This document shows, piece by piece, positions 7,116-21,087 of a DNA stretch of 64,000 bases. Under the pieces are notes generated by a model that searched no databases, was not told the origin of the DNA, and was given only the letters and a program-made list of their open reading frames with translations. The DNA is from Streptomyces sp. NBC_00091 (lineage in GTDB: Bacteria > Actinomycetota > Actinomycetes > Streptomycetales > Streptomycetaceae). Every line of letters begins with the position of its first letter. Position 1 is the first letter of the stretch. The position numbers were made by a program, and so were the translations under genes. The stretch spans positions 2,294,001 through 2,358,000 of the forward strand of contig NZ_JAPEMA010000001.1 of assembly GCF_026343185.1 (NCBI RefSeq). Reading direction: 5' to 3'.

Positions 7116-7188
7116 GGATCCAGGTTAAGCAGGCTCGGCGACACTTCCACAGCCGTTCGGGTGGCACCTCGAACAGTCGTCGCCCAGA

Positions 7189-7221
7189 GTTCACCCTGAC
7201 GACGGGGTTGATTCACTTGTG
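7189..7221 (+). promoter_or_regulatory. candidate PHO box (PhoP operator) between phoR and phoU
   Basis: GTTCACCCTGA at 7189-7199 and ATTCACTTGTG at 7211-7221 lie exactly 22 nt apart, two 11-nt units on the same face, with a divergent unit between. This matches the known Streptomyces PhoP direct-repeat pattern (GTTCACC core). The position between divergent phoRP and phoU suits autoregulation. Confidence 0.75.
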
Positions 7222-7326
7222 ATGCCGGAGTCGGACGCGTTGGCGACCCAACGTGTCAACGTGGGGCACGACAGTCCACACAGCAGAAGTAGCGAGCAGT
7301 AGGCAAGCCGGTAGGAGAGGGACACC

Positions 7327-8004
7327 ATGCGCGACGCGTACCACGAGGAACTGGACTCGATCGGAGAAAGCCTGGTCGAGATGGCCCGGCTCGTCGGTTC
7401 CGCGATCGGGCGGGCCACGACCTCCATGCTGGACGCCGACCTGAAGCTCGCGGAGAGCGTGATCGCCGCCGACCAGAAGGTGGACGACCTCCAGCACGAC
7501 CTGGAGGCCCGTGCCATCGCGCTGCTGGCCCGCCAGCAGCCGGTCGCCACCGACCTGCGCATCGTGGTGACCTCGCTGCGGATGAGCGCGGACCTGGAGC
7601 GCAGCGGCGACCTGGCGCAGCACGTGGCGAAGCTGGCGCGGCTGCGCTTCCCGGACACGGCGGTGCCGCGTGACCTGCACGCGACGATCCTGGAGATGGG
7701 GCAGCTGGCGCAGCGCCTGATGGCGAAGGCGGCCGAGGTCATCATCACGAAGGACGTCGACCTGGCGCTCCAGCTGGAGCAGGACGACGACGAGATGGAC
7801 CACCTGCACCGCACCCTGTTCCAGCACCTGATGGACGACCGCTGGAAGCACGGCATCGAGACGGCGGTGGACGTGACCCTGCTGGGCCGCTACTACGAGC
7901 GGTTCGCGGACCACGCGGTGTCGGTGGCGAAGCGCGTGGTGTACCTGGTGACGGGTGAGCACGCGGACGAGCTGCAGCAGCCGACGCAGGTCGAGGGCGT
8001 CTGA
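7327..8004 (+). CDS. phoU: phosphate signalling protein PhoU
   Basis: 225-aa cytoplasmic helical protein that links the Pst transporter to PhoR and dampens Pho signalling. It shows the two PhoU repeats, each with a metal-binding ExxxD-type motif: DLRIVVTSLRMSADLERSGD in the first and RYYERFADHAVSVAKRVVY in the second. Length is normal. The ATG at 7327 opens MRDAYHEELDSIGESL, preceded by GGAGAGGG. It is divergent from phoRP. Confidence 0.95.
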   Translation: MRDAYHEELDSIGESLVEMARLVGSAIGRATTSMLDADLKLAESVIAADQKVDDLQHDLEARAIALLARQQPVATDLRIVVTSLRMSADLERSGDLAQHVAKLARLRFPDTAVPRDLHATILEMGQLAQRLMAKAAEVIITKDVDLALQLEQDDDEMDHLHRTLFQHLMDDRWKHGIETAVDVTLLGRYYERFADHAVSVAKRVVYLVTGEHADELQQPTQVEGV

Positions 8005-8123
8005 TCCGCCTTCGCGTCGGCACGCCCCAATGCGCCGTTGACGCGCCGGTGTGGCTGGGCATGAATGAGGGCGAAGGCACTCCGCCATAGGAAGCCCCCG
8101 TACGCCGCCTACGAGGAGGAACC

Positions 8124-8273
8124 ATGCCCGATTCCCCCGTCCCGATCACACCGGAACAGGAGCAGCCGGCCCGCCCGGAGCCCCTGAGCCTCCCGCTGCT
8201 CGCGGCCTGCGGCTGCGGTTCCGGCTGCGGCTGCGGCTGCCAGTCCGGCGCCCCCTGCCAATGCGGCGGCTGA
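8124..8273 (+). CDS. 49-aa Cys-rich metallothionein-like peptide
   Basis: A small ORF opened by ATG at 8124, 3 nt after a very strong ribosome binding site GAGGAGGA (8113-8120). The N-terminal 28 residues are Pro/Glu-rich; the last 21 contain seven Cys, mostly as alternating Cys-Gly (ACGCGSGCGCGCQ, then APCQCGG). That density suggests metal (Zn, Cu or Ni) or thiol binding, but no family is recognised with certainty. It lies 119 bp after phoU and before a strong terminator, so it may be co-transcribed with phoU or have its own promoter. A compositional accident is unlikely given the ribosome binding site and terminator. Confidence 0.65.
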   Translation: MPDSPVPITPEQEQPARPEPLSLPLLAACGCGSGCGCGCQSGAPCQCGG

Positions 8274-8291
8274 CCCCGCCCACGCAGCCCA

Positions 8292-8324
8292 AGAGGGCCC
8301 CGTCCGTTCCGGACGGGGCCCTCT
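8292..8324. terminator. bidirectional terminator hairpin after the Cys-rich gene
   Basis: A perfect 15-bp stem (8292-8306 with 8310-8324; AGAGGGCCCCGTCCG) with a TTC loop. Before the AICE inserted it would also have served gpm converging from the right, since the displaced gpm end is only 30 bp further on. Confidence 0.85.
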
Positions 8325-8353
8325 CGCGTGCCGTACGAGGCCCTGCGGGCCGC

Positions 8354-8380
8354 GGGTTACTTCTTGCCCTGGTTCTTGAC
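8354..8380. repeat. attL core: 27-bp direct repeat of the gpm 3' end
   Basis: These 27 bp are identical to 18829-18855, where they are the last codons and stop of the phosphoglycerate mutase gene. Identity stops abruptly on both sides (C versus A before, C versus G after). This is the displaced original gene end at the left junction of the AICE. The other core copy completes gpm. Confidence 0.88.
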
Positions 8381-8470
8381 CCGGCCTGGGGCTTTACCCG
8401 GCACCCTGGCCCTGACCTGCGGTCGCGCGGTCAGCGGTTGTCACCCTCGGCCACCCTTGGCCGCCGTCCC

Positions 8471-8488
8471 ACGGCCCAGGGACGGCCC
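8471..8488 (+). repeat. left arm-type repeat pair inside the AICE
   Basis: Two copies of ACGGCCCAG at 8471 and 8482 (11-nt spacing), 90 bp inside the left core. The same pair, with one mismatch over 18 nt, is at 18748-18765 near the right core in the same orientation. These are candidate arm sites for the integrase or Xis. Confidence 0.6.
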
Positions 8489-8499
8489 AGCCAAGGCAC

Positions 8500-8895
8500 T
8501 CAGCCGGTCGTCCGCCATGCCGACTTCGCTGCGGTGTGGTCCTGCCAGAGCTGGACGAGCTGCTCAGCCTGCGCCTTCGTGATGACGCCAGCCTCTACCC
8601 CAAGCGCTGTCGCTTCGCGGACAGGCACTCGCTGGATCTCCAGCATCGTCTCCGCCATCTTGTCCGCGTTCCTCGGAGTCCCTTCATGGCCATACGTCAG
8701 GTCACGAGGAAGGAAGGTCTCCACCTTGCCATCGCCGCTCTCGAAGGCAGCTCGGGTCAGCTCCACCTTCACCCTCTTGGTTCCCAGGCTCAGCACTACC
8801 CCGTGAGCGCCCTGCAAGTGGTACGGCCGGTCACTCGTGAAGGAGATGGTCACAGGATCTCCAGGAGCTAGCTGCCTGCCTTCGCGGTCATTCAT
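8500..8895 (-). CDS. AICE hypothetical protein, 131 aa
   Basis: Not recognised. The start at 8895 (MNDREGRQLAPGDPVTISF) is chosen because GGAGG lies 5 nt upstream; the frame is open 10 codons further but without such a site. The first 70 residues look like a small beta-barrel or KOW-like fold (GDPVTISFTSDRPYHLQGA, GVVLSLGTKRVKVEL). The rest is helical and charged (ADKMAETMLEIQRVPVREA). It is the leftmost element gene, reading towards attL. Confidence 0.65.
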   Translation of the reverse strand: MNDREGRQLAPGDPVTISFTSDRPYHLQGAHGVVLSLGTKRVKVELTRAAFESGDGKVETFLPRDLTYGHEGTPRNADKMAETMLEIQRVPVREATALGVEAGVITKAQAEQLVQLWQDHTAAKSAWRTTG

Positions 8896-9468
8896 CGCGG
8901 CCTCCCCAAGACTCGTGCTGATCAAGCAGTCAGGCTAGCGGCGGCACACGATTAACAGGTCCGGCTTGAGTAAATGCCCCCGCGAGAGCCCCCGCCTCGA
9001 CGCACCACCCACCCCAACTCCCATCCCGTCTGCCGTCGACCCACACGTATGTGGAGCGGGCGCGGTGCCGGGCGTCCAGGTGGAGCGCGCCACTGTACGA
9101 ACGACCTGGACGCCCGGTGCCGTGTCTGCTCGGCTTGCCCTGGGTCGACGGCAGACGGGATGGGAGTTCCCCGCCCCCAGCCACATACGGCCGGCACTCG
9201 CGTGCGGCGCCCCCGCCATCCCGGAGCCTGAGCGCCCCCGCCGGAGGCATGTTTGGTGAGAGGCGGATCCAGCGGCCTCTGGGGACTCGGCTCATGCCCT
9301 TGGGCCTATCCCGCCGTAGGGGCGGGCGTCGGCGCAGCGCGCGCGGAGCGGGCCGAAGGCAGGAGCGTCGCGCGGAGCGGAGCCGGGAAGCCCGCCCGGC
9401 GGAGCGGAGCGCAGCCGGGTGCTTGATGAGGTAGAGAAACCTGTAACAGGTCCGCTTGGCTCCTACGG
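8896..9468. other. 573-bp non-coding part of the AICE
   Basis: No convincing gene on either strand; the short ORFs here are by-products of the large palindrome at 9016-9168. The right part (9320-9420) is rich in GGAGCGG/GCGCGGAGC repeats. AICEs need a double-strand origin, single-strand origin and transfer locus; the palindrome makes this stretch a candidate for one of them. Confidence 0.5.
9016..9168. repeat. 153-bp nested palindrome in the AICE
   Basis: A perfect 28-bp inverted repeat (9016-9043 with 9141-9168, containing CCCGTCTGCCGTCGACCCA) encloses a second one, CCGGGCGTCCAGGT (9068-9081 with 9104-9117). Both centre on about 9092. The single strand could fold into a long hairpin with an internal bulge and a 22-nt loop. 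Such structures serve as single-strand origins (sti-like) in Streptomyces rolling-circle plasmids. Function here is inferred. Confidence 0.8.
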
Positions 9469-10161
9469 CTACGCCGTGGTGAATGCGTCGGCGATGGCCT
9501 GCATGGCGTCCGTGATGGCGTCGGCTCCCGCTTCGGCGAAGAGCGCGGCCTTGTGGGGCTTGTTGGCGTAGGCGATGACCGTTGCGCCGGCTGTATGAGC
9601 GGCCTGGACGTCGGTGAGCGAGTCACCAATTAGGGTGCAGTCCTCTACCCCCACCCGCGCCTGCTCCGCCGCCGTGATGATCGGGAACGGGTTGGGCTTC
9701 ATCAGGTGGGGCTGTCCGACTGGGCGCCCGACGATCTCCGCTACGTGACCCCCCAGACCATGGATCTCCAGGAAGCGCTGAACGCACTCGGCAGAGTTGT
9801 TGCTCACCACCAGCACTTCGCGCCCCGAGGAGCGAGCGGCTCGAAGGGCCTCCACCGCTCCAGGAGTCGGCGGGCCGGCCACTGCGACGGCTTCGACCTC
9901 CGCCGCAGTCAGCGCCTGCTCCACCTCCCGGCCGATGGCGGCACCGGCTTCATGGGCGATCCGCAGGACCTCGATCGGATCGTCGGTCTCGGCGGCCTTC
10001 GCGCCCGCGGCTTCGTCCTGGGAAGAGAGCAACGAGGTCAGCTGCTTGGCGACCTCCGGAGCGGGCAGCCCGGCGAACACGTCGCACACCGGCCCGTCGA
10101 AGTCGAAGAAGACAACGCGCGCGTTCGCCAAGACTCCTGAGAGCCGCTCATCGTGCGTCAA
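9469..10161 (-). CDS. HAD-family hydrolase of the AICE
   Basis: 230-aa haloacid dehalogenase-like hydrolase. Motif I is FFDFDGPVCDVF (residues 18-29) with nucleophile Asp and second Asp. Motif II is LVVSNNS, a lysine follows in HLMKPNP, and motif IV is GDSLTDVQAAHTAG. The helical cap lies between motifs I and II. Substrate is unknown; phosphoglycolate-phosphatase-like proteins have this layout. The start is a TTG overlapping the last 14 nt of the upstream GntR gene, so the two are translationally coupled. HAD genes beside GntR regulators recur in AICEs, but their role is not established. Confidence 0.85.
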   Translation of the reverse strand: MTHDERLSGVLANARVVFFDFDGPVCDVFAGLPAPEVAKQLTSLLSSQDEAAGAKAAETDDPIEVLRIAHEAGAAIGREVEQALTAAEVEAVAVAGPPTPGAVEALRAARSSGREVLVVSNNSAECVQRFLEIHGLGGHVAEIVGRPVGQPHLMKPNPFPIITAAEQARVGVEDCTLIGDSLTDVQAAHTAGATVIAYANKPHKAALFAEAGADAITDAMQAIADAFTTA

Positions 10162-11014
10162 GGTCGAAGTCCCTTCCGATGGTCTCCCACACGCTGTCGA
10201 ACCACATGCGGGCCTGCTGGACCTGTTGTGCCCCGCTGGAAGACTCGCCGTCGTTGATCGAGTGGTGGAAGAGCGTGGTGTCCTTGCCCACCAGGTCGTA
10301 GATCTCGATCACCTCGCCCTGGGCGACGACCTTGTTCGGACGGATCGGGTAGTACCCGAAGAACGCGTCCTCTTCGTTGATCACGTAGAGCTTGAAGAAC
10401 TGCGTGCCACTGTGGACGCGGACCTTGATCCGCGCCTCGGCGACGAGACCCAGGTGCTCCAGCTCGGTGATGGCATCCCGAATGCTGCGCGTGTAGCTGA
10501 CCATGATGTCGTGCATGCGGTCGCGGAGCCGCTCGTCGTCCGCTCCGTCCTCCATGCGCACGGGTGCTGCCTGCGGCACGGACATGTCCGGGACGAGTAT
10601 CCGCATGGTGATGCTCGACGGCGTGAGCCGACCGACGCGGATCTTGTCCAGCGGTTCCTGAAGCGCACCGTGCAGCGTCTCGCTGGAGAATCCGGCGAAG
10701 TCGATGGTCACGTGTTCCTTGGCGAAGGCCTGCTCGACGTACGGCCGCAGGCCCGCCGGCCGCTCGGTCCGGTTGCGGACGTAGACACCGCTGCCCTTGC
10801 GGGAGACAACAAGGCCCTCGTCTTCGAGGTCGCGCAGTGCGCGCTGGATCGTCGCCCGCGCGAACCCGTACAGCTCCGTCAGTTCCTTGTGGGACGGGAG
10901 CTTCTCGCCAGGGCCCAGTCGCCTCGTTCGGATGGCAGCGCTGAGGCTGCTGGCCACCTGCTCGTACGGGGCTCGGTCGTCGTCTGGGTCTAGGGGCTCG
11001 GGGACGAAGGTCAT
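10148..11014 (-). CDS. GntR-family transcriptional regulator (KorSA-like) of the AICE
   Basis: 288 aa. The N-terminal winged helix (about 15-85) reads APYEQVASSLSAAIRTRRLG, GEKLPSHKELTELYGFARAT and LEDEGLVVSRKGSGVYV, typical of GntR. The C-terminal part resembles a UTRA effector-binding domain. In pSAM2, KorSA of this type represses transfer and replication genes. It is the first gene of a leftward pair with the HAD hydrolase and is divergent from the transfer operon. The intervening 150 bp carry two palindromes built on GGCTAGCC, probable operators for this protein. Confidence 0.88.
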   Translation of the reverse strand: MTFVPEPLDPDDDRAPYEQVASSLSAAIRTRRLGPGEKLPSHKELTELYGFARATIQRALRDLEDEGLVVSRKGSGVYVRNRTERPAGLRPYVEQAFAKEHVTIDFAGFSSETLHGALQEPLDKIRVGRLTPSSITMRILVPDMSVPQAAPVRMEDGADDERLRDRMHDIMVSYTRSIRDAITELEHLGLVAEARIKVRVHSGTQFFKLYVINEEDAFFGYYPIRPNKVVAQGEVIEIYDLVGKDTTLFHHSINDGESSSGAQQVQQARMWFDSVWETIGRDFDLDAR

Positions 11015-11068
11015 GGGTCGATGGTAGGCGAAACCCCTCCAGGCAGGACAGCCATGCCAGTCATGTTG

Positions 11069-11097
11069 TTGACATGGCTAGCCACGTCTCCTACCTT
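11069..11097 (+). promoter_or_regulatory. consensus-like promoter of the AICE transfer operon
   Basis: TTGACA (11069-11074), a 17-bp spacer and TACCTT (11092-11097) make a near-consensus vegetative promoter, stronger than usual for Streptomyces. The first operator palindrome overlaps the -35 and spacer, so a bound repressor would block RNA polymerase. Confidence 0.7.
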
Positions 11098-11130
11098 CGA
11101 GATGTGACCAACCGGGCTAGCCAAGTTGGT
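11071..11130. promoter_or_regulatory. two palindromic operators for the GntR regulator
   Basis: Site 1 (11071-11088): GAC-TGGCTAGCCA-GTC. Site 2 (11107-11130): ACCAAC, two bases, GGCTAGCC, two bases, GTTGGT. Both are centred on the same 8-bp palindrome GGCTAGCC, 39 bp apart. Site 1 lies in the promoter spacer, site 2 just downstream of the likely start. Assignment to the adjacent GntR protein is inferred. Confidence 0.65.
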
Positions 11131-11167
11131 CATCTAGCTTCCTGCTGGCATCTCTGAAGGAGAAACC

Positions 11168-11497
11168 ATGCCGTCGTTCAAGGTGGACACGTCGACCGCC
11201 GTGGTGTTCGTGGCCACGGCCCCCGTGCCGAAGCTCGTGAGCAAGCAGACCGGTGAGCGCGCCGTCGACCGGGAGACCGGTGCCGGCCTGTCCACGGTGG
11301 GCCTGCTGATCTCGGACGAGGGGGAGGGCAACCTCTACCAGGTGACCGTGCCGGAGACGGGTCTCCCCGAGGGGCTGATGCCGGGCATGCCGGTTTCGGT
11401 GATCGGACTGAAGGCCCGGGACTGGGAGAACACGTTCAACGGCCAGACCCGGCACGGCATCTCGTTCCGCGCCGTCGCCCTCACCGCCGGGGCCTGA
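11168..11497 (+). CDS. conserved AICE protein, 109 aa, possibly SCO3933-type regulatory protein
   Basis: First gene of the rightward AICE operon, preceded by GAAGGAGA. The protein is predicted all-beta (FKVDTSTAVVFVATAPVP, YQVTVPETGLPEGLMPGM, GISFRAVALTAG), suggestive of an OB-like fold. From memory, similar proteins before the FtsK-like gene of AICEs are annotated as an SCO3933-type regulatory family; I cannot confirm this. Its stop is 2 nt before the start of the transfer gene. Confidence 0.75.
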   Translation: MPSFKVDTSTAVVFVATAPVPKLVSKQTGERAVDRETGAGLSTVGLLISDEGEGNLYQVTVPETGLPEGLMPGMPVSVIGLKARDWENTFNGQTRHGISFRAVALTAGA

Positions 11498-11499
11498 CC

Positions 11500-12849
11500 A
11501 TGGCCGACCTGACGACCTTATGGGAGGTCGGCCTCCCCCTGGCCGGTGCGGGCGGAGGTCTCGGCTACGCGAAGATCCGCGCGCCCCGCGTGTTCTGGTC
11601 CCTGGTCGGGCTGCCGGTGGCACGGGTGCGGTTCGCGGTGACGTACCGCTCCACGATGGACGTGTGCGGGCTGACGGTGCAGCCGTCCCGCTTGCGGGCG
11701 TTCCTGGTGCGCAACGTCGCTCGTCGCAGTGACGTGCAGCCCGTACCGCCGAAGGTCCGGCGCGTCCGGGGCTCCTCGACCGGCATGCGGGTCACCCTGC
11801 GTCTGCCGGCCGGTCTGGAACCCGCCGACGTGATCGCGGCCTCCGAACGGCTGCGGCACGCCTGGGGCGTCCGCTCCGTCAACGTGATCGAGACCCGGCC
11901 CGGGTTCGTCGAGCTGCGGATGACCGGCTACGACGTACTCCAGCGGGTGAAGATGCCGCGCCGCCCGCCTGCCGGTCCGATGACGGTGGCGGTCGCGCTC
12001 AGGGAGGACGGCACCGCCTTCGTCCGGGACTACCTCAAGGTCCCCCACGCCCTGACGCTCGGCGCCAACCAGTCGGGCAAGTCCATGTACCTGCGCAACC
12101 TGGTCGTAGGCCTCGCCCGACTGCGGGTCGCCCTCGTCGGGATCGACTGCAAGCGGGGTGTCGAACAGCGGGGATACGCGCCGCGTCTGTCGGCACTTGC
12201 CGTGACGCCGGAAGAGGCCTCGGGGCTTTTGGACGCGCTCGTGGACGAGATGGAAAACCGCTTCGACCTGCTGAGCGATCACGGGGCCGCCGACCTGTGG
12301 GCTCTGCCCGAAGAGGTCCGGCCGGTGCCGGTCGTGCTGCTGGTGGACGAGGTCGCGGAGCTGTTCCTCGTGGCCGGGAAGAAGGACGAGGAACGCCGGG
12401 ACCGGATGGTCATGCAGATGATCCGCCTCGGACAGATGGCCCGCGCCGCCGGCATCTACTTGGAGATCTGCGGCCAGCGGTTCGGGTCTGACCTCGGCAA
12501 GGGTGCCACCGCGCTCCGCGCCCAGCTCACCGGCCGCGTCGTCCACCGCGTCAACGACAAGCAGACCGCCGACATGGGCCTTGGCGACATCGCCCCGGAC
12601 GCGGTGGTAGCGGTGACGACGATCCCGCCCGACCGTCCCGGTGTCGCGGTGGCCGGCGACTCCTCCGGCGGCTGGTCCCGCATGCGCACCCCCGCGTTGA
12701 GCGCGGAGGAGGCCGCTGCGATCTGCACCCAGTACGCGCACCTGACCCCGGACCTTCCGGCTCTCGCCCCGTACCGGCCGGTGGTCCCCACCGAAGCCGC
12801 GTCCGACGGGCCCGTGCCGCTCGTGAAGCCGATCCCGGCGACGGACTAG
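11500..12849 (+). CDS. traSA: FtsK/SpoIIIE-type DNA translocase, conjugal transfer protein TraSA-like
   Basis: 449-aa ATPase expected to move double-stranded element DNA between hyphae, the single-protein conjugation mode of Streptomyces. A short hydrophobic N-terminus (residues 8-45) precedes the motor domain. Walker A is LGANQSGKS near residue 190 and Walker B is VVLLVDEVAEL near 280. C-terminal motifs IYLEICGQRFGSDL and LRAQLTGRVVHRV are typical of FtsK-like Tra proteins. It is shorter than chromosomal FtsK and lacks the multi-TM N-terminus and gamma domain. Confidence 0.88.
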   Translation: MADLTTLWEVGLPLAGAGGGLGYAKIRAPRVFWSLVGLPVARVRFAVTYRSTMDVCGLTVQPSRLRAFLVRNVARRSDVQPVPPKVRRVRGSSTGMRVTLRLPAGLEPADVIAASERLRHAWGVRSVNVIETRPGFVELRMTGYDVLQRVKMPRRPPAGPMTVAVALREDGTAFVRDYLKVPHALTLGANQSGKSMYLRNLVVGLARLRVALVGIDCKRGVEQRGYAPRLSALAVTPEEASGLLDALVDEMENRFDLLSDHGAADLWALPEEVRPVPVVLLVDEVAELFLVAGKKDEERRDRMVMQMIRLGQMARAAGIYLEICGQRFGSDLGKGATALRAQLTGRVVHRVNDKQTADMGLGDIAPDAVVAVTTIPPDRPGVAVAGDSSGGWSRMRTPALSAEEAAAICTQYAHLTPDLPALAPYRPVVPTEAASDGPVPLVKPIPATD

Positions 12850-12927
12850 TCACTCTCCCCCTCGGTCGGCGTGACCGTCTCACGCCAGGTCCCTACCCGA
12901 CCCATGCCCGGAATCGAAGGGAACCCC

Positions 12928-13119
12928 ATGAGCACCACGAAGAAGCCCCCGGCCCCGCGCCGCCGCTCGGCCAAGCCCGCGTCCGCCCCGCCGTCCTGCG
13001 GTACCTGCGCCGGCACCGGGGAGACCGCCACGACGGTCCGGGTTGGGCGCAAGCGCCGGGAGATCGACGCCACTCAGACCGCGCTGTGCCCGGACTGCTT
13101 CGGCACCGGCACCGCCTGA
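12928..13119 (+). CDS. small zinc-ribbon-like AICE protein, 63 aa
   Basis: Start at 12928 (MSTTKKPPAPRRRS), 7 nt after GAAGGGA; the longer upstream frame is rejected. A basic Pro/Ala-rich N-terminus is followed by CGTCAGTG and CPDCFGTG, two CxxCxGxG motifs of the DnaJ zinc-finger type about 35 residues apart. This suggests one zinc site and nucleic-acid or protein binding. A second protein of the same design is encoded at 15180. Confidence 0.75.
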   Translation: MSTTKKPPAPRRRSAKPASAPPSCGTCAGTGETATTVRVGRKRREIDATQTALCPDCFGTGTA

Positions 13120-13140
13120 ACCCAGGAAGGAGACGGCCTC

Positions 13141-13815
13141 ATGTTCCGCACCCTCCGCCTCGACGCCGTACTCATCCAGGCCGTCATCGCCGGGGCCTTG
13201 TCCTTCGCCCACCTGCACGATCTCGCTGCTGCGGCTGGACAGGACGGATGGAAGGCCTGGGCCTACCCGGTGAGCGTGGACCTGCTGTTGGTCGCCGCAT
13301 GGCGACGGATGCGCATGGACGCGGAGAACCGCGACGCCTGGCTCTGGTTCGCCATCGCCCTGATCGCGTCGCTCGGCGCCAACATCGCCACCGCCGGACT
13401 GCTCGACCTGCACAACGTCCCGGCCTGGCTGCGCATCCTCGTCGCCGGATGGCCCGCGCTCGCCTTCCTCGGCGGCACGCTCCTGGCCCACGCACCGACA
13501 CCGGAGCTGGCGACGCCGCACCTGGAGCCCCTGGAACAGCCTCACATCGAACCCGCGCCGGACCTGACGGTGGAGCGCGTCCCGGAACCGGCTCCCGAGC
13601 TTCCGCCGGTCGAACCCGCCCCGGAAGAGGTGCAGCCGGAGCCCGCGCCCACCACAGCCGCCGTACCCGTACCGCCCGCGCTGCTCGATCACGCCCGAAA
13701 GATCGCGGACGCCCATCGCGTCCAGACCGGAGCCCCGATCGACGCGGCAACCCTCCGGAGCCGCCTCGGCGTACCTGCCGCCCTGGCTGACTCGATCGCC
13801 CTCCAACTCGCCTGA
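13141..13815 (+). CDS. DUF2637-type membrane protein, probable spread (Spd) protein
   Basis: 224 aa. About four transmembrane segments fill residues 8-115 (VLIQAVIAGALSFAHLHDL, WAYPVSVDLLLVAAWRR, LWFAIALIASLGANIATAG, ILVAGWPALAFLGGTLLA). Then a Pro/Glu linker (about 118-180) and a short helical C-terminus follow. The topology matches DUF2637 proteins common on Streptomyces plasmids and AICEs. Position after the transfer gene suggests a role in intramycelial spread, inferred from pSAM2 and pIJ101. Confidence 0.75.
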   Translation: MFRTLRLDAVLIQAVIAGALSFAHLHDLAAAAGQDGWKAWAYPVSVDLLLVAAWRRMRMDAENRDAWLWFAIALIASLGANIATAGLLDLHNVPAWLRILVAGWPALAFLGGTLLAHAPTPELATPHLEPLEQPHIEPAPDLTVERVPEPAPELPPVEPAPEEVQPEPAPTTAAVPVPPALLDHARKIADAHRVQTGAPIDAATLRSRLGVPAALADSIALQLA

Positions 13816-13835
13816 CAGGAAAGGAGATCGCCACC

Positions 13836-14024
13836 ATGCGCCCGAAGCGCTTCTACAACGTCGTCCGCATCGGCCCGGTACGCGTCGGCACCTACCGCGA
13901 CGGCCACGGCCGCACCAAGCACGCCGCCGCCTGCACCGCCCCTGAGTGCGGCTTCTCCGCCGACTACAGCAGCCGCGCCAGCGCCGAACTCGCCGCCCGC
14001 ACTCACCGCTGCAACCCGCGCTGA
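13836..14024 (+). CDS. small mobile-element transfer protein, 62 aa
   Basis: MRPKRFYNVVRIGPVRVG and the later CTAPECGFSADYSSRASAEL match, from memory, a short family annotated as mobile element transfer protein in Streptomyces AICEs. Cys residues in ACTAPECG and HRCNPR plus His suggest a small zinc finger. AAAGGAGA precedes the ATG. It lies in the tight spd cluster with 20-bp gaps. Confidence 0.75.
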   Translation: MRPKRFYNVVRIGPVRVGTYRDGHGRTKHAAACTAPECGFSADYSSRASAELAARTHRCNPR

Positions 14025-14043
14025 TCGCGAAGGAGACCACCTC

Positions 14044-14199
14044 ATGGACGTCCCGCTCTGGCTCGCCCTGATCGTCGTCGGCGCCCTGGGAATCAAGCTC
14101 ATCCGCCCGCCCTGGTGGCTCGTCGCCGTGATCCTCCTCGGCGGCTACCTCCTCGCCGACAGCTTCCTGGCCCCGCTCGCCGACCCGATCACCAAGTAG
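14044..14199 (+). CDS. 51-aa membrane peptide of the AICE spd cluster
   Basis: A short ORF with ribosome binding site GAAGGAGA 8 nt before the ATG. It encodes two hydrophobic helices (LWLALIVVGALGIKLI and WWLVAVILLGGYLLADSFLA) joined by RPP. It sits between the 62-aa protein and SpdD-like gene with gaps of 19 and 12 bp, so it is part of the transfer/spread operon. No specific homology is claimed. Confidence 0.75.
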   Translation: MDVPLWLALIVVGALGIKLIRPPWWLVAVILLGGYLLADSFLAPLADPITK

Positions 14200-14211
14200 G
14201 GAGATCCCGCC

Positions 14212-14532
14212 ATGCTTCGACCGCGCATCCCGGTCAACCCGCTCCCGACCGGCATCGTCACCCCGCTCGCGCAGTCCGTCACCACGTCCGACGTCGAGCC
14301 CCGCCACGAGTCCTCGCCGACGGCCGCCGCCCCGAACGCCCCGGCCCGCACCACGGTCCAGCTCACCCCCGGCAGCGTGGTCGCCCTCGCCGCCGGCGGT
14401 GGCGCCGTGGTCCTGGTCGTCGGCGCCGTCCTCGTCTCGATGCTCCTCGCGGTCGCCATCACCGGCGTCTCCGTGGCCGTGATCGCGGTGGTCCTGCGCC
14501 TGCTCATCAAGGACCTCCAGAAGGGGCGGTGA
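14212..14532 (+). CDS. SpdD-like spread protein
   Basis: 106 aa. A polar N-terminal half (about 1-55) is followed by a long hydrophobic segment (VVALAAGGGAVVLVVGAVLV and continuing to about 98) and a basic end KDLQKGR. Size, topology and position match SpdD-type proteins of Streptomyces plasmids, which aid spread of the element in the recipient mycelium. Mechanism unknown. Confidence 0.7.
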   Translation: MLRPRIPVNPLPTGIVTPLAQSVTTSDVEPRHESSPTAAAPNAPARTTVQLTPGSVVALAAGGGAVVLVVGAVLVSMLLAVAITGVSVAVIAVVLRLLIKDLQKGR

Positions 14533-14539
14533 CCCCCTC

Positions 14540-15085
14540 ATGGACACGCACGTCATCGCTGCGGGCTTACCGTCCCTGGGCTGGGCCCTGCACGGCGGGC
14601 TGCTCCTGCGCCGCCTGGCCACCGCCCGCCGCGACCCCCTGACCGGCCTGCACACCCGCTCCGGGTGGACCGCCCGCGCCGAACACCTGATGGCCAAGCA
14701 CCCCAGCGCCCTCGTGATCCTGGTCGACCTGGACGACTTCAAGGCCATCAACGACACCCACGGCCACGCCGCCGGCGACACGGTCCTCACCACGACCGCC
14801 CGCCGCCTGACCACTTGGTGCGGACGCCACGGCATCGCCGCCCGCCTCGGCGGGGACGAGTTCGCCGCCATCGTCACCGACCCCGGCCTCACCCAGGGCC
14901 TCCACGCCCTCCGGACCACGTTGGACCAGCCGGTCACGCACGACGGCTGCGCCCTGCCGGTCTCGGCCTCGGTCGGCCACTGCCACCGCGAGCACCTGCC
15001 GGTGCCCGCCCTCACCGACGCGCTGTCGGCCGCCGACTCCTCGATGTACACGGTCAAGGGCCACGGCAGGCGCAACACACGCTGA
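14540..15085 (+). CDS. GGDEF-domain protein (putative diguanylate cyclase) carried by the AICE
   Basis: 181 aa. After a short hydrophobic N-terminus (about 5-25) nearly the whole protein is a GGDEF domain: RDPLTGLHTR, metal-binding LVDLDDFKAIND (Asp63 region), and the intact signature LGGDEF (GGDEF at 104-108). An active enzyme would make c-di-GMP from two GTP. There is no sensor domain and no RxxD inhibitory site five residues before GGDEF, so activity may not be product-inhibited. It lies 7 nt after the SpdD-like gene, so it is co-expressed with transfer genes. In Streptomyces c-di-GMP controls development through BldD and RsiG-WhiG; whether the element exploits this is unknown. Confidence 0.85.
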   Translation: MDTHVIAAGLPSLGWALHGGLLLRRLATARRDPLTGLHTRSGWTARAEHLMAKHPSALVILVDLDDFKAINDTHGHAAGDTVLTTTARRLTTWCGRHGIAARLGGDEFAAIVTDPGLTQGLHALRTTLDQPVTHDGCALPVSASVGHCHREHLPVPALTDALSAADSSMYTVKGHGRRNTR

Positions 15086-15179
15086 GCGGCCCCCGGGACG
15101 GCCTCGGTCGCCAAACTTCCGCCACCCCGGGCGCCTGGACCCATCCCAGATCCAACGGACCCGAAAGGGAGAGCTCATC

Positions 15180-15353
15180 ATGCCCCAGAGCACCTCGACC
15201 CCGTGCCGCGACTGCGACGGCTTCGCCACCGCCACGATCACCACCGGCGCCCGCACCTCCGATGGCACCCGGGCCACCATCCCCGTCCACTGCCCCGCCT
15301 GCGAGGGACTCGGCCGCTCCACCACCGCCGTCCTCGTCCGCGTCGGTAAGTGA
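15180..15353 (+). CDS. small zinc-ribbon-like AICE protein, 57 aa
   Basis: ATG at 15180 preceded by GAAAGGGAGA. The protein has CRDCDGFA and CPACEGLGRS, two CxxC motifs about 35 residues apart with the DnaJ-like CxxCxGxG pattern, resembling the 63-aa protein at 12928. It lies just before the initiator gene, whose probable GTG start is 4 nt after this stop, suggesting translational coupling. Confidence 0.75.
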   Translation: MPQSTSTPCRDCDGFATATITTGARTSDGTRATIPVHCPACEGLGRSTTAVLVRVGK

Positions 15354-15357
15354 TCAC

Positions 15358-16764
15358 GTGATCTACACCGCCACTGCGGCGGGCCTGGACCCGGCCACCC
15401 TGAGCGACCTGCTCCGGGTGGCCGGGTCCCCCGGCTTCGACCGCCTTCACGAGCAGATCCGCCGCACCGGAGGATGCGCCGCCCCCATCCGCCTTTCCGG
15501 CGGCACCAAGCTCCTCGACCCGGCCACCCGCACCGTGCTCCACGCCTACACCACCGACACCGAACCCGGCGGCGTCCTGCGCGTCGCCTGCGGCAACCGC
15601 CGCGCCTCCCGCTGCCCCGCCTGCGCCTGGACCTACGCCGGCGACACCTATCACCTCATCCGCGCCGGGCTCATCGGCGACCGGGCCAAGGGCACCCCCG
15701 ACACGATCCGCGATCACCCCCGCGTCTTCGCCACCCTCACCGCCCCCTCCTTCGGCCCCGTTCACAACCGCCCCGGCACCCGACCCTGCCGCTGCGGCGT
15801 CCGGCACTCCGAGGACGCTGCCGAACTGGGCACCCCGCTCGACCCGGCCACGTACGACTACGCGGGTGCGGTGCTGTGGAACAACCACGCCTCCGAGCTG
15901 TGGCGCTACTTCACGATCTACCTCCGCCGCGAGATCGCTGCTCGCGCCGGCCTGACCCAGAAGGCTGCTCGCGAGCAGTCGCGGGTCTCTTTCGGCAAGG
16001 TCGCCGAGTACCAAAAGCGCGGGGCCGTCCACTTCCACGCCGTCATCCGCTTCGACGGACCCGACGGGCCCGACTCCCCGCCGCCCGCCTGGGCCACCCT
16101 CGATCTCCTCACCGAGGCCATCCGGGCCGCCGCTGCCCGCGTCCGCGTCGTCGTCCCCGCCACCCCGGAACACGGGATCGAGGACGAGTGGGTGCTGCGG
16201 TGGGGCGAGCAGATCGACGTCCAGCCCATCGGCGCCTTCGGGAACGGGGAGGAGCTGACGGAACAGGCGGTCGCCTCCTACGTCGCCAAGTACGCCACCA
16301 AAGCGGCCGAGACGACAGGCACCGTGGACCACCCGGTGGGCAACAAGGAGGCACTCGTCCTCCTCGGCGTGCCCGAGCACCCCCGGCGGCTGATGGAAGC
16401 CTGCATGGACCTCGACCGGGCCTACCCGGACCGGCGGCTGCGGGCCTGGGCTCACATGCTCGGCTTCCGTGGCCACTTCTCCACCAAGTCGCGCCGCTAC
16501 TCGACCACCCTCGGCGCCTTACGCCAGGTCCGCGCCGACTACCGCGCCGCCCAGCAACGCGCCTCGCTCGGCCTGCCCGACCCCGACGCGAACCCGGAGG
16601 CCACCCTCCTCGTCGTCGCGCACTGGTCCTACGCCGGCCACGGCGCGACCCCCGGTGAGTCCTGGCTCGCCGCCAACGTCCGCCGGGACCTCCAGCACAA
16701 CCGCGATCACGCCCGCGAGATCCGCGCCGAACTCGACGCCGCCGACACCAATGGGGAGTGGTGA
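15358..16764 (+). CDS. repSA: RepSA-type replication initiator protein
   Basis: Rolling-circle initiator of pSAM2-type AICEs, 468 aa from the GTG at 15358 (VIYTATAAGLDPATLSDLL). The frame is open far upstream but that part overlaps the GGDEF and zinc-ribbon genes. Recognisable stretches are CGNRRASRCPACAWTYAGDT (zinc-binding), VFATLTAPSFGPVH, the HUH-type metal motif AVHFHAVIR, and SYVAKYATKAAE with the candidate catalytic Tyr. Initiation probably depends on coupling with the preceding gene, since no strong ribosome binding site precedes 15358. It overlaps the ribosome binding region of xis. Confidence 0.88.
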   Translation: MIYTATAAGLDPATLSDLLRVAGSPGFDRLHEQIRRTGGCAAPIRLSGGTKLLDPATRTVLHAYTTDTEPGGVLRVACGNRRASRCPACAWTYAGDTYHLIRAGLIGDRAKGTPDTIRDHPRVFATLTAPSFGPVHNRPGTRPCRCGVRHSEDAAELGTPLDPATYDYAGAVLWNNHASELWRYFTIYLRREIAARAGLTQKAAREQSRVSFGKVAEYQKRGAVHFHAVIRFDGPDGPDSPPPAWATLDLLTEAIRAAAARVRVVVPATPEHGIEDEWVLRWGEQIDVQPIGAFGNGEELTEQAVASYVAKYATKAAETTGTVDHPVGNKEALVLLGVPEHPRRLMEACMDLDRAYPDRRLRAWAHMLGFRGHFSTKSRRYSTTLGALRQVRADYRAAQQRASLGLPDPDANPEATLLVVAHWSYAGHGATPGESWLAANVRRDLQHNRDHAREIRAELDAADTNGEW

Positions 16765-16766
16765 CC

Positions 16767-16967
16767 ATGGCCCGCGCTCTGCCCGAGCGCTACCTCACGC
16801 CGACCGATCTGGCGGACCTCTTGGGTGTCCCGCTGGAGACCGTCTACCAGTGGCGCCGGAAGCGGACCGGGCCGCGTGGTTTCCGGGTCGGGGTCCACCT
16901 CCGGTACGACCCGGAGGACGTCCGTACGTGGGTCAGCTCGCTCATAAATGAGGAGAGTGCTGCCTGA
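16767..16967 (+). CDS. xis: excisionase Xis (MerR-like helix-turn-helix)
   Basis: 66-aa DNA-binding protein: RYLTPTDLADLLGVPLETVYQWRRKRTGP is a classic excisionase-type helix-turn-helix with wing (FRVGVHLRYDPEDVRTWV). It directs Int towards excision. The ATG at 16767 is chosen for GGGGAG 8 nt upstream; in-frame GTG codons at 16758 and 16761 are alternatives. Its TGA overlaps the integrase ATG (ATGA), so the two are translationally coupled. Confidence 0.9.
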   Translation: MARALPERYLTPTDLADLLGVPLETVYQWRRKRTGPRGFRVGVHLRYDPEDVRTWVSSLINEESAA

Positions 16968-18244
16968 TGGCCGGACACATCCAGGACCGCTGGTACAAGA
17001 TCGAGACTGGGCCCGGCGGCAAGCCCGTCAAGGTCAAGACCGAGCGCTACGGATCCGGGCTGCGCTATCGGGCCCGGTACGTCGGGCCGGACGGCACCGA
17101 GAAGAGCAAGTCCTTCCCGGACCGCCAGAAGCGTCTGGCAGAGCAGTGGCTCGCGCACATCGAGGCCGACATGTCGCGCGGCGCGTACATCGACCCGAAG
17201 GCCAGCCGGATCACGTTCCAGCAGTACGCGGAACGCTGGCTCGGCAACCACGGCGCCGACCCGAACACGGGGTTCTCGATGGAGTCGCAGCTGCGACTGC
17301 ACGCCTTCCCGTACCTGGGGTCGCGACCGCTGGCGTCCTTCCAGCCCGCCCACATCCGGGACTGGGTGGCCAAGCTCAAGGCGGTCGGCGTAACCGGGTC
17401 GTACGCGAGGGTCATCTACTCCAACGTGCGGAGCGTGCTGAACGCGGCGGTGGATGACACCCTGCTCACCAAGAATCCGTGCGCGGCCCGGTCGGTCAAG
17501 GCTCCGACCGTGGAGGCCAAACGGGTGATTCCCTGGACCGCCGAGCGGGTCTTCGCCGTGCAGGCCGAGCTGCCGGAGCGGTATCGCGCGCTCGTGGACC
17601 TGGGTGCCGGGTGCGGGCTGCGGCAGGGCGAGATCCTGGGCATCGACGTGGACGCGATCGACTTCGACACGGACACGGTCCACGTGGTCCAGCAGCTGAA
17701 GCTGAGCCGGAGCAAGGCCGTGTTCGCCCCACCGAAGGGCGGCAAGCTCCGGGACGTCCCGCTGCCGGGCCCGGTCGCTGATGCGCTGCGCGCCCACATG
17801 AAGCACTGCCCGCCCGTCGCGATCACCCTGCCGTGGGGGGTGGCCGGCGGCCCCCTGGTGACGAAGCGGCTCGTCTTCACCGCGCCGATGGGCGGCCACG
17901 TATGGCGCGGCATGTTCAACACCGACCAGTGGAAGCCGGCCCTCGCCGCCGCAGGGGTCATCGCCGAGAGGGAGAAGGGACAGGAGAGCTATGCCTCCGC
18001 CCGGGAGCACGGGATGCATGCGCTGAGGCACTTCTACGCTTCGGTGCTGCTGGACGCGGGGGAGAACGTGAAAGCTCTGGCTGAGTACCTGGGTCACTCG
18101 GACCCTGGCCTCACCCTTCGCGTCTACGCACATCTGATGCCGAGTAGCCAGGAGCGGACCCGCACGGCCGTCGCGACGGTGTACGGGCGACTTGAGAAGC
18201 CCAGCCACCACGGAAAACGGGGCTCTATTGAACCAACAACTTGA
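16967..18244 (+). CDS. int: tyrosine site-specific integrase
   Basis: 425-aa phage-type integrase. An arm-binding N-terminus (to about 65) and a SAM-like core-binding domain (about 75-165, ITFQQYAERWL) precede the catalytic domain. Catalytic residues are visible: Arg in GCGLRQGEILGI, HALRH (HxxR), the second His in YLGHSDPGL and nucleophile Tyr in LRVYAHL. Its C-terminus ends 585 bp from the right core repeat, the expected place for an AICE integrase. It probably recognises the 27-bp core in the gpm 3' end. Confidence 0.95.
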   Translation: MAGHIQDRWYKIETGPGGKPVKVKTERYGSGLRYRARYVGPDGTEKSKSFPDRQKRLAEQWLAHIEADMSRGAYIDPKASRITFQQYAERWLGNHGADPNTGFSMESQLRLHAFPYLGSRPLASFQPAHIRDWVAKLKAVGVTGSYARVIYSNVRSVLNAAVDDTLLTKNPCAARSVKAPTVEAKRVIPWTAERVFAVQAELPERYRALVDLGAGCGLRQGEILGIDVDAIDFDTDTVHVVQQLKLSRSKAVFAPPKGGKLRDVPLPGPVADALRAHMKHCPPVAITLPWGVAGGPLVTKRLVFTAPMGGHVWRGMFNTDQWKPALAAAGVIAEREKGQESYASAREHGMHALRHFYASVLLDAGENVKALAEYLGHSDPGLTLRVYAHLMPSSQERTRTAVATVYGRLEKPSHHGKRGSIEPTT

Positions 18245-18577
18245 GGGTATTAGTTACGCACGCGCGAGCCAACCATCCAGAAGCCTTCCCGCATGCATGC
18301 ATGCACGCACGCACGGATAGGCGTACATGAAATAGCAACCACGCCATTGAAAAGCATCTTCGCAGGTCAGAGGGACAAGGATGCGTCAACTTGGCGATCC
18401 AACATGAAATACCAGGTTTAGCCCGACAGCCCCACCTGCACGTTTGTCTCACGTCAGGAACGCTCTGTAAGCTCACCAAAGCGCAAAAAGAGAGCCGCCC
18501 CGGCTAGGGCGGCTCTCACTTCCGTCTGCGCCTGCACGACCTCTTGTCTTGGACCTACGAGCACATCTGGAGCCTCC
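18245..18577. other. 333-bp lower-GC attP-proximal region
   Basis: Clearly more A+T-rich than the rest of the window, with an alternating purine-pyrimidine run of GCAT and GCAC units at 18291-18315 and a hairpin at 18490-18517. No gene recognised. Such DNA next to int commonly binds Int, Xis and host bending proteins; that role is inferred. Confidence 0.5.
18490..18517 (-). terminator. rho-independent-type terminator reading leftward in the AICE
   Basis: GAGAGCCGCCC (18490-18500) pairs with 18507-18517 around a 6-nt loop. On the minus strand the stem is followed by a run of five T, so it would stop transcripts coming from gpm into the element. It may also end int transcripts. Confidence 0.7.
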
Positions 18578-18748
18578 ATGGTGCCACGCCCGGGATTGAC
18601 CATCGACATCTCGCTACGCGAACTACCGTTCTTGGTGATCGGCGCCGGAGCCACGGCGCTCCCCGCCTGGACCGAGGTCCCACCAGCCGCCGTTCTGCCC
18701 CTGGCCGTCCTGATTGCCGTGCAGATCCGCGTCCGTCGGCGCGCCTGA
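18578..18748 (+). CDS. 56-aa putative membrane peptide at the right end of the AICE
   Basis: ATG at 18578 with GGAG 5 nt upstream; the frame ends at TGA 18746-18748. The protein has two hydrophobic stretches (LPFLVIGAGATALPAW and VLPLAVLIAVQIRV) and a basic tail RVRRRA. Its stop codon shares a base with the right arm-type repeat. No homologue recognised; the call rests on ribosome binding site and hydrophobicity. Confidence 0.45.
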   Translation: MVPRPGLTIDISLRELPFLVIGAGATALPAWTEVPPAAVLPLAVLIAVQIRVRRRA

Positions 18749-18765
18749 CGGCCCAGAGACGGCCC
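18748..18765 (+). repeat. right arm-type repeat pair inside the AICE
   Basis: ACGGCCCAG at 18748 followed by ACGGCCC at 18759, 11 nt apart, in the same orientation and with one mismatch to 8471-8488. It lies 63 bp inside the right core. Candidate integrase or Xis arm site. Confidence 0.6.
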
Positions 18766-18774
18766 CAGAGCAAC

Positions 18775-18819
18775 AAGAAGCCCCCCATCTGCGGAGAACC
18801 AGCAGGTGGGGGGCTTCTT
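18775..18819. terminator. strong hairpin between the AICE and gpm
   Basis: An 18-bp stem (18775-18792 with 18802-18819; core GAAGCCCCCC) with one wobble pair and a 9-nt loop sits just inside the right core. It replaces the original gpm terminator that insertion left at 8292-8324. Confidence 0.8.
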
Positions 18820-18828
18820 CGTGCGTAA

Positions 18829-18855
18829 GGGTTACTTCTTGCCCTGGTTCTTGAC
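18829..18855. repeat. attR core: 27-bp direct repeat within gpm
   Basis: Identical to 8354-8380. It encodes the last residues VKNQGKK and the stop of gpm, so insertion keeps the enzyme intact. Confidence 0.88.
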
Positions 18856-19590
18856 GGCTTCGATGGCGGCCGCGGCGGCGGCCGGGTCGAGGTAGGTGCC
18901 GCCCGGGTTGAGGGGCTTGAAGGCGGCGTCGAGCTCGTAGGCGAGCGGGATGCCGGTGGGGATGTTCAGGCCCGCGATGTCGGCGTCGGAGATGCCGTCC
19001 AGGTGCTTGACCAGGGCGCGCAGGGAGTTGCCGTGCGCGGCGACGAGCACGGTGTGGCCGTCCAGCAGGTCCGGGACGATCGAGTCGTACCAGTACGGCA
19101 GCATGCGGACGACGACGTCCTTGAGGCACTCGGTGCGCGGGCGCAGCTCCGGCGGGATCGACGCGTAGCGCGGGTCCGCGGACTGCGAGAACTCCGTGCC
19201 GTCCTCGAGGGCCGGCGGCGGGGTGTCGTAGGAGCGGCGCCACAGCATGAACTGCTCCTCGCCGAACTCGGCGAGGGTCTGGGCCTTGTCCTTGCCCTGG
19301 AGGGCGCCGTAGTGGCGCTCGTTCAGGCGCCAGGAGCGGTGGACCGGGATCCAGTGGCGGTCGGCGGCCTCGAGCGCCAGCTGCGCGGTGCGGATCGCGC
19401 GCTTCTGGAGCGAGGTGTGGACCACGTCGGGGAGGAGGTCGGCGTCCTTCAGGAGTTCGCCACCGCGGACTGCCTCCTTCTCGCCCTTCTCGTTGAGGTT
19501 GACGTCCACCCAGCCGGTGAACAGGTTCTTCGCGTTCCACTCGCTCTCGCCGTGGCGGAGGAGGATCAGCTTGTACGGTGCGTCGGCCAT
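18832..19590 (-). CDS. gpmA: 2,3-bisphosphoglycerate-dependent phosphoglycerate mutase
   Basis: Glycolytic enzyme interconverting 3- and 2-phosphoglycerate. 252 aa from the ATG at 19590 ([19 protein letters not shown]); the frame is open far upstream but without family similarity. The phosphohistidine motif LRHGESEWN is at residues 11-19. [15 protein letters not shown] and [16 protein letters not shown] carry the other active-site residues. The last eight codons including the stop are the AICE core repeat, so the 3' end is supplied by the element but the protein is unchanged. Confidence 0.95.
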
Positions 19591-19658
19591 GCGTACGAGC
19601 CTAATGGACGCCATGGGGCGCCCGCGCGCGGTCCGTGGTCGGTCGTGGAGGGCCCTCG

Positions 19659-19677
19659 ATTGACGGTCGGCGTCAAT
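19659..19677. promoter_or_regulatory. inverted repeat in the gpm-MFS divergent promoter region
   Basis: ATTGACG (19659-19665) and CGTCAAT (19671-19677) form a perfect 7-bp dyad with a 5-bp gap, 75 bp before the MFS start. It includes a TTGACG -35-like hexamer. The regulator is unknown. Confidence 0.4.
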
Positions 19678-19752
19678 CCAGTGGACGGCGGCGGACCCCG
19701 CTCGTAACGTGCGGGGAGATCCAGGGACTCTTACATCATCGGGGGAACACGT

Positions 19753-21087
19753 ATGTCCGCTGCCAGTCTGAGACGGGCCGCCCGGGAAAGCGTCTCGGGT
19801 CTGCCGAGCGCCTTCTGGTGGCTGTGGGCCAGCACGCTCGTCAACCGGCTCGGGGCCTTCGTCGCCACGTTCATGACCTTGTACCTGACCCTGGACCGGG
19901 GCTATTCGGCCTCCTTCGCGGGGCTTGTGGTCGCCCTGCACGGGCTCGGCGGGGTGGTGTCCTCGCTCGGGGCCGGGGTGATGACCGACCGGCTGGGGCG
20001 GCGGCCGACGATGCTGGCGGCGAACGTCTCGACGGCCTTCTCGGTGGCGCTGCTCGGCTTCATGGAGCATCCGGTGGCGATCGCCGCGGTGGCGGGGCTG
20101 GTCGGGATGACCTCGAACGCCTCGCGCCCGGCGGTCTCGGCGATGATGGCGGACATCGTCCGGCCGGAGGACCGGGTACGGGCCTTCGCGCTGAACTACT
20201 GGGCCATCAACATGGGCTTCGGGATCAGCGCGGTGGTGGCGGGCGTGGTGGCGGAGTACAGCTACCTGGCCGGCTTCCTGGGCGAGGCCGCGCTGACGCT
20301 GCTGTGCGCGGTGCTGGTGTTCGTGAAGCTGCCGGAGTCGCGGCCGGTGCGGGACAGCGCCGCGGTCGCCGACGACGGGCCGGAGATCGGGCTGGGGACC
20401 GTGCTGCGGGACGGGCGGTTCATGGCGGTGGTCGGGCTGTCGTTCGTCATCTCGCTGATCTTCACGCAGGGCTCGGTGGGGCTGCCGGCGGCGATGGGCG
20501 CGGCCGGGTTCTCGCCAGGGGACTACGGGCTGGTCGTGGCGGCGAACGGGCTGCTGATCGTGGTGCTCCAGATCCCGGTGACGCGGTTCATCGAGCACCG
20601 CGACCCGCGCCGGCTGCTGGTGATCTCGGCGCTGCTGGCGGGGTACGGGTTCGCGATGACGGCCTTCGCGGGGTCGCTGTGGGCGTACGCGCTGACGGTG
20701 TGCGTGTGGACGCTGGCGGAGATCGTGAACTCGCCGACGCAGATGGGGCTGGTGGTGCGGCTGTCGCCGGTGCACGGGCGCGGCCGGTACCAGGGGATGT
20801 ACACGATGTCGTGGGCGGTGGCCGCGCTGGTGGCTCCGCTGATGGCGGGGTTCGTGATCGACCGGCTGGGCGCGGACTGGCTGTGGGGGGCCACGGGGGT
20901 ACTGGGGACCGTGGCGGCGCTGGGGTACTGGCTGCTGATGCGGAACCTGCAGGATGCGGATTCCGGCAAGGGTCCGGACGCGGGTGTGGGTGTGGGTGTG
21001 GGTGCGGGTGTGGGTGCGGAGGCGAAGGGGAGCGGCGCGGTGGCCGCTTCCGGGGCCGCCGCGGCGGCCAGTCCGGCCGCCGTCTGA
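19753..21087 (+). CDS. major facilitator superfamily transporter
   Basis: 444 aa with about 12 transmembrane segments. The conserved MFS loop between TM2 and TM3 is present ([13 protein letters not shown]). Family resemblance is to drug/metabolite exporters, but the substrate is unknown. The C-terminal tail (about 412-444) is Gly/Val/Ala low-complexity, coded by GTGGGT-type repeats at 20982-21019, and is not part of the fold. It is divergent from gpm. Confidence 0.88.

Follow-up and report, generated by a model that had tools for sequence, protein, structure and literature searches.

An integrative element of the RepSA type in Streptomyces sp. NBC_00091 that probably uses the 3′ end of a phosphoglycerate mutase gene as its attachment site

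A 64-kb stretch of the genome of Streptomyces sp. NBC_00091 (64,000 nucleotides of contig NZ_JAPEMA010000001.1, positions 2,294,001 to 2,358,000; hereafter the window) carries an element of about 10.5 kb with the gene content of an actinomycete integrative and conjugative element (AICE), inserted at the end of gpm, the gene for phosphoglycerate mutase. The element lies between the two copies of a perfect 27-bp direct repeat (27/27 identical; 10,475 bp from start to start), one at 8354..8380 (attL) and one at 18829..18855 (attR), both belonging to the minus strand. Read on that strand, the repeat encodes VKNQGKK followed by a stop codon and three more bases, which is the end of gpm; the gene with its restored end occupies 18832..19590 (minus strand). 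A first-pass annotation of this DNA had set the boundaries at this repeat and equated it with the last codons and the stop of gpm, and both proposals proved exact. The 27-mer occurs twice in the window, with no third copy. No exact repeat in the 7000-20500 interval is longer, the next measuring 15 nt once one copy is removed, and none of 100 dinucleotide shuffles of this interval produced a repeat of 27 (mean 14.7, maximum 22), leading us to reject a chance origin. Of 199 genomes from the genus to which S. hydrogenans belongs, 198 contain a match to gpm at E ≤1e-90, with residues 1-251 covered at up to 97% identity among the matches listed.

All four modules expected of a complete element (Rep, Tra, Xis and Int), as listed by the first-pass annotation, are present between the repeats and have open reading frames (ORFs), with small ORFs interspersed among the element's genes. 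On the plus strand are found an FtsK/SpoIIIE-type translocase, Tra (11500..12849; PF01580, 2.6e-30), a RepSA replication initiator (15361..16764; PF20199, 3.2e-153), an HTH_17 protein, Xis (16767..16967; PF12728, 5.9e-11 on 16758-16967) and a tyrosine integrase, Int (16967..18244; PF00589, 1.6e-15). Int lies on the gpm side, 584 bp from attR. Its residues R219, K257/K260, H351, R354, H377 and Y387, picked out by motif position, presumably make up the R-K-H-R-H-Y catalytic set of tyrosine integrases. In one survey (PMC3218068), AICEs are defined by a recombinase at the att site, an FtsK/SpoIIIE Tra, a replication protein of the RepSA, RepAM or Prim-Pol type, and the order att-tra-rep-int-att. 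The window shows the recombinase beside att at one end, a PF01580 Tra, RepSA, and this same order between direct repeats. We conclude, with a probability of about 0.94, that this is a RepSA-type AICE and that its tyrosine integrase has the 3′ end of gpm for its attB; the figure refers to identity and site specificity and leaves present activity aside.

The left side of the element adjoins chromosomal genes. These are phoU (7327..8004, plus strand), 89-99% identical to its counterparts in seven loci lacking an element, and a gene for a 49-residue Cys-rich peptide (8124..8273, plus strand), whose reading frame was checked and whose conservation rests on the DNA alignment of these seven loci. In the latter (L086, L087, L093, L094, L105, L106 and L108), phoU, the peptide gene and gpm follow each other with no Int, Rep or Tra match in between, so that the uninterrupted junctions on whose existence the first-pass proposal depended do occur. 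The two most compact have phoU and gpm 441 bp (L094) and 548 bp (L105) apart, and L105 contains the identical 27-mer once. The seven come from a set of 34 short gpm loci (L081-L114) and were recognized by phoU on the 3′ side and absence of an integrase; four others carry an integrase (L081, L082, L084 and L114), and the remaining 23, having neither phoU nor integrase within 1.5 kb, were left unclassified. One of these 23, L085, holds decayed elements (L148), arranged in tandem at gpm with an att-like junction between them.

The hairpins at the two ends suggest how the gpm terminator is dealt with. On the old chromosomal side, 27 bp from the left repeat copy, a strong hairpin spans 8290..8326 (fold of 8290-8345, -40.8 kcal/mol, z -6.0); a similar one is present in L105. 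In the alignment of the seven element-free loci, inspected by eye, a hairpin directly follows the gpm stop, and in some of them a second one follows the peptide gene. The proposal that the displaced gpm end and the old terminator remain on the left thus holds for the repeat copy and the adjacent strong hairpin, and needs refining in one respect: element-free loci may show two hairpins, whereas the left side of the window retains a single one. On the other side, the right repeat copy supplies the end of gpm and a terminator-like hairpin borne by the element adjoins the stop (18770..18824, minus strand; -40.7 kcal/mol, z -6.7), in support of the claim that the element restores gpm. The 72 nt at this position fold at -32 kcal/mol or below in 36 of 36 gpm-adjacent loci, a figure to be set against 59 of 180 random 72-nt windows reaching -30. 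As uninterrupted gpm also appears to have a hairpin at its stop, like would replace like.

A scan of genome contigs for relatives of the integrase found 233, of which 80 loci were kept, some cut short by a contig end. Thirty-six of the 80 have gpm downstream of int and convergent with it, its 3′ end no more than 1.1 kb away; the 28 best-ranked of the 80 loci (75-83% identity) are all situated 3′ of gpm within this distance. The closest relatives are therefore to be found at gpm rather than at tRNA genes, and they share the core. Among the 199 genomes sampled from the genus, the integrase is matched at E 1e-160 in 53, and 21 of the genomes have an integrase no further than 1.5 kb from gpm (G001, G020, G027, G033, G050, G069, G073, G079, G088, G096, G100, G108, G113, G115, G133, G140, G143, G181, G182, G198 and G201), as judged from match coordinates and reading of the loci. 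Because the sample includes its centre, G001, picked as element-bearing, 20 of 198 is the fairer figure. Copies in G050 and G140 are broken, the G140 integrase having two stops. Beyond the genus, gpm-adjacent integrases were seen in Kitasatospora (L035), Streptantibioticus (L026) and Catenulispora (L038). Phage integrases are distant, the best place scoring below 60% in all 936 records. The gpm core was not found, allowing up to 4 mismatches, in the plasmid-borne relatives L145 and L146; L145, an 18.4-kb circular record with a 59% identical integrase, was for this reason rejected as a circular gpm element.

Int sequences also group by target. In a tree of 106 integrases, built by a quick method without bootstrap, all 50 gpm-adjacent rows, the window included, fall in one branch of 55 (99*). 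The other five rows of this branch are L032, L033, L029, L128 and L130, the last being the second copy in genome G073. L032 is a tandem at gpm and has two integrases of different subclades. Mapping the six labelled targets onto the tree takes 5 changes, the minimum possible, in a count that leaves out 15 unlabelled rows and the tandem row (16 of the 106 rows being without label). Labels denote proximity up to 2.5 kb: the NlpC gene is 2.3 kb away in L029, and "cdsA" labels span 152 to 2,356 nt. Together, the relatives at gpm and the tree support the earlier suggestion that a gpm attB defines a distinct integrase specificity, one that is strong but, given L033 and the second site in G073, not absolute.

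Further evidence comes from the core sequences. The ten core pairs recovered share TACTTCTTCTTGCCCTGG, or TTACTTCTTGCCCTGG in the shorter form of gpm, and diverge soon after. Genome G073 contains an 11,073-bp match twice (L153 and L154), once at gpm and once about 1.1 Mb off. The two copies are internally identical between the core edges; their four differences are all at these edges, where the second site reads GCTTCTCGCC-ATGGTCCTTTACGGC and the gpm site TTCTTCTTGCC-CTGGTTCTTCACGGC. This difference places the apparent exchange point of the G073 relative at the GCC of TTCTTGCC, and the exchange point of the window element would be the same. To judge from their differing flanks, the G073 copies are likely to be two true insertions, and their internal identity suggests that the relative moved recently.

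Between the cores the element carries a pair of arm-like sites, both on the plus strand: ACGGCCCAGGGACGGCCC at 8471..8488, 117 bp from the start of attL, and ACGGCCCAGAGACGGCCC at 18748..18765, 81 bp before attR. Searched for with up to 2 mismatches, ACGGCCCAGNGACGGCCC occurs in the window at these two places, exactly in both cases, against 0.2 occurrences expected; one shuffle in 100 had two. Core pairs from other loci show the same layout. In eight of eight (L020 and L032 were left out of the ten), counting the best match with at most 2 mismatches, the left arm begins at a distance of 112-130 nt from where the left core starts, and the right arm precedes its core by 78-84 nt; a right arm with up to 3 mismatches lies within 140 nt in 36 of 36 gpm loci. 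These, like the arm count given below for other loci, are raw counts carrying no chance expectation. The ACGGCCC repeats of the arms would bind Int or Xis.

The following scheme would account for these features. Int would recognize the 3′ end of gpm as attB and exchange strands within the codon of the last Gly. Upon integration, the attP half would provide gpm with its final two Lys codons, its stop and a new terminator-like hairpin, so that gpm would remain intact, its displaced end and former hairpin being left behind on the phoU side. For excision, Int and Xis would act on the two 27-bp copies and recombine them into a circle for replication and Tra-mediated transfer. Sequence comparison establishes the boundaries, the modules, the uninterrupted sites, the position of the clade at gpm and the exchange point in the relative; excision and transfer of the window copy are inferred.

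A number of observations weigh against assigning this element and its integrase to gpm without reservation. One member of the gpm branch, L033, is found next to an NlpC gene and has 40-nt repeats, and L029 and L128 group with it (99*). One of the two identical G073 copies occupies the secondary site and not gpm. Only 10 of the 36 gpm loci have a second core copy of at least 18 nt within the fetched flank. In the five less compact uninterrupted loci, phoU and gpm are 790-942 bp apart and the extra DNA is unclassified. Of 44 loci without gpm, 31 also have a related arm motif downstream of int, implying that this motif does not encode gpm specificity. Finally, all that the close relative G050 has at gpm is decayed elements in tandem.

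The last point favors the alternative that survives best, namely that an AICE did enter at gpm but is now a fixed, immobile remnant. This explanation shares the identification made above and departs from it on present activity. The decay of the G050 locus and the two stops in the G140 integrase are in line with such a fate, and activity of the window copy is conjectural; however, its module genes are open, its att copies are identical, and the G073 relative, in two internally identical copies, appears to have moved recently. We consider immobility unlikely, though well within reason. Far less probable is that the 27-bp repeat represents a segmental duplication of the gpm end and not an att site. 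While the repeat by itself cannot discriminate between the two, ten other gpm loci, whose backbones differ, also have a second core copy, the exchange in G073 is limited to a few bases, and element-free loci exist; the core pairs and the G073 exchange led us to reject the duplication. Scarcely credible is a third alternative, in which Int is truly a tRNA-site enzyme, as that of pSAM2 is, and its position at gpm is due to chance or to secondary use: ARAGORN found no tRNA gene in the 64-kb window, 76 of the 80 related loci lack one in the DNA fetched while the remaining four have it more than 6 kb from int, and the 28 best-ranked loci are all at gpm. The rule that most AICE tyrosine integrases use tRNA genes (PMC3218068) speaks for this alternative and the integrase tree against it; a tRNA gene as attB was rejected. 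Int as an integrase specific for the gpm 3′ end remains the reading we adopt.

The remaining genes of the element include, at its left end, two cargo genes on the minus strand, an ORF without Pfam or NCBIfam match (8500..8898) and a HAD-family hydrolase (9469..10161; PF00702, 1.1e-17), and a GntR-family regulator (10148..11014, minus strand; PF00392, 2.2e-20) that, from its position, we take to be KorSA-like. Tra is preceded by a SCO3933-family regulatory protein (11168..11497, plus strand; NF051478, 5.1e-41, 139 bits, the cut-off being 80) and followed by a DUF2637 protein (13141..13815, plus strand; PF10935, 7.8e-23), presumably SpdB-like. Between Tra and Rep lies the gene for a GGDEF-domain protein (14540..15085, plus strand; PF00990, 1.1e-30), its motif intact as read from the sequence; counterparts are found in the S. 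hydrogenans element (83%) and in the circular record L145 (48%). AICEs of the pSAM2 type have RepSA, KorSA, Tra, Xis and Int, and both pSAM2 and SLP1 have their attB in a tRNA gene. The window element resembles the pSAM2 type in having RepSA, a GntR regulator, an FtsK-type Tra, a DUF2637 protein and a Xis-Int pair beside att; it differs in its attB, the 3′ end of gpm and not a tRNA gene, and in its cargo, the HAD hydrolase and the unassigned ORF. No NUDIX (Pif-like) domain was detected among the window ORFs scanned against Pfam. The element of S. hydrogenans JCM 4771 (L001/L147) is collinear with it over the stretch that starts at the SCO3933-family gene and ends at Int (Rep 88%, Tra 84%, Int 81%) and has the gpm core at both ends, but its GntR protein is 38% identical over 66 residues, its left-end cargo is different, about 14.7 kb separate its cores, and its left core has one mismatch.

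A nested inverted repeat at 9016..9168 (plus strand), located outside called genes and having perfect outer arms of 28 nt, is common to several AICE-like loci. It has blastn matches in 16 fetched loci with different integrases (78-90% identity bar one short hit; L001 and L147 represent a single locus) and is 78.6% identical in pMR2 of Micromonospora, where Tra is 26% identical and Rep gives no match. In an alignment of 14 sequences, from which the structure itself was also derived, pairing holds in 99.3% of cells, and at 9 pairs both sides vary; on four of five measures none of 500 shuffles was as extreme, while 20 of 500 were for pair types. The constant G-U pairs suggest that it is the plus strand that folds. 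No Rfam match was obtained. The repeat is a candidate single-strand origin or transfer site.

The contrast with tRNA-using AICEs drawn by the first-pass annotation stands insofar as the target is gpm, but is less new than it supposed, since protein-gene sites are known (PMC9513070, PMC3218068). PMC9513070 lists 36 tRNA, 14 protein-coding and 1 intergenic sites for integrative and conjugative elements, AICEs and derivatives, and describes AICE03 of strain RLB3-6, inserted in rlmN with 11-nt repeats and having an integrase different from that of its tRNA-Val sister. AICE03 is likewise a protein-gene AICE, in another gene and with shorter repeats; its site is likely the cdsA-rlmN gap used by a related integrase clade (see below). 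The whole pSLS integrase subfamily is excepted from the tRNA rule in PMC3218068; going by that description, its members resemble the window enzyme as AICE tyrosine integrases not at tRNA genes. Protein-gene targets are also known from two other cases. PAISt, like the window element, sits at a protein-gene 3′ end in Streptomyces and has a tyrosine recombinase, but is a 674-kb island in bacA with an 8-bp palindromic core (PMC4057263). The dusA-specific integrases have a protein gene as dedicated target in many genomes, but use the 5′ end of dusA and belong to other islands (PMC4482086). As an integration site, gpm is not named in the titles and abstract openings among the papers listed by our searches, supplements and subscription papers lying outside their range; "gpm", "phosphoglycerate" and "mutase" do not occur in the main text of either AICE survey (PMC9513070 and PMC3218068), the supplements of which may list the target, and "gpm" is absent from PMC12884075. 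What is new here is the target, gpm; the kind of element is a familiar one, and no break with earlier knowledge is implied.

Added interest comes from the use of different protein-gene sites by related integrases. Those at 60-68% identity lie beside glnA, miaA or a thioester-domain gene, or near cdsA, and in a single locus, L065, rlmN was seen on the opposite side. Repeats of at least 40 nt at both ends occur in 4 of 37 non-gpm loci: L033 (NlpC), L045 and L065 (cdsA-rlmN) and L070 (glnA). Among the other 33, several have shorter, chance-like repeats and most have none; the miaA and thioester-gene sites are assigned by proximity. The cdsA-rlmN gap contains a conserved core, AGTTCTCCGGG...CCAGTGTCGCAGA, at 11331-11372 and 438-479 of L045 and at 1253-1294 of L065. 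Rep proteins 77-78% identical to that of the window are encoded in L042 and L067, with integrases of the cdsA-rlmN clade, and in L068, at a thioester-gene site; most gpm-site loci have a Rep at 52-57% or no match. This mismatch between Rep and Int suggests that integrase modules are exchanged between backbones.

On balance we lean toward the view that this integrase family has spread in Streptomyces AICEs by switching among protein-gene sites (gpm, glnA, miaA, the cdsA-rlmN gap and NlpC) while keeping one attP plan: paired ACGGCCC arms, a built-in terminator, and a core copied from the end of the host gene, at gpm and glnA at least. The attP would act as a prosthesis restoring the last codons and the transcription stop, and Int modules would move independently of Rep and Tra. 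Related clades with differing protein-gene sites and a shared attP plan, together with the secondary site in G073, amount to a natural experiment on shifts in tyrosine-integrase specificity. With gpm matched in 198 of the 199 genomes, the integrase is also a candidate for building an integration vector, which should coexist with vectors that use tRNA and phage sites.

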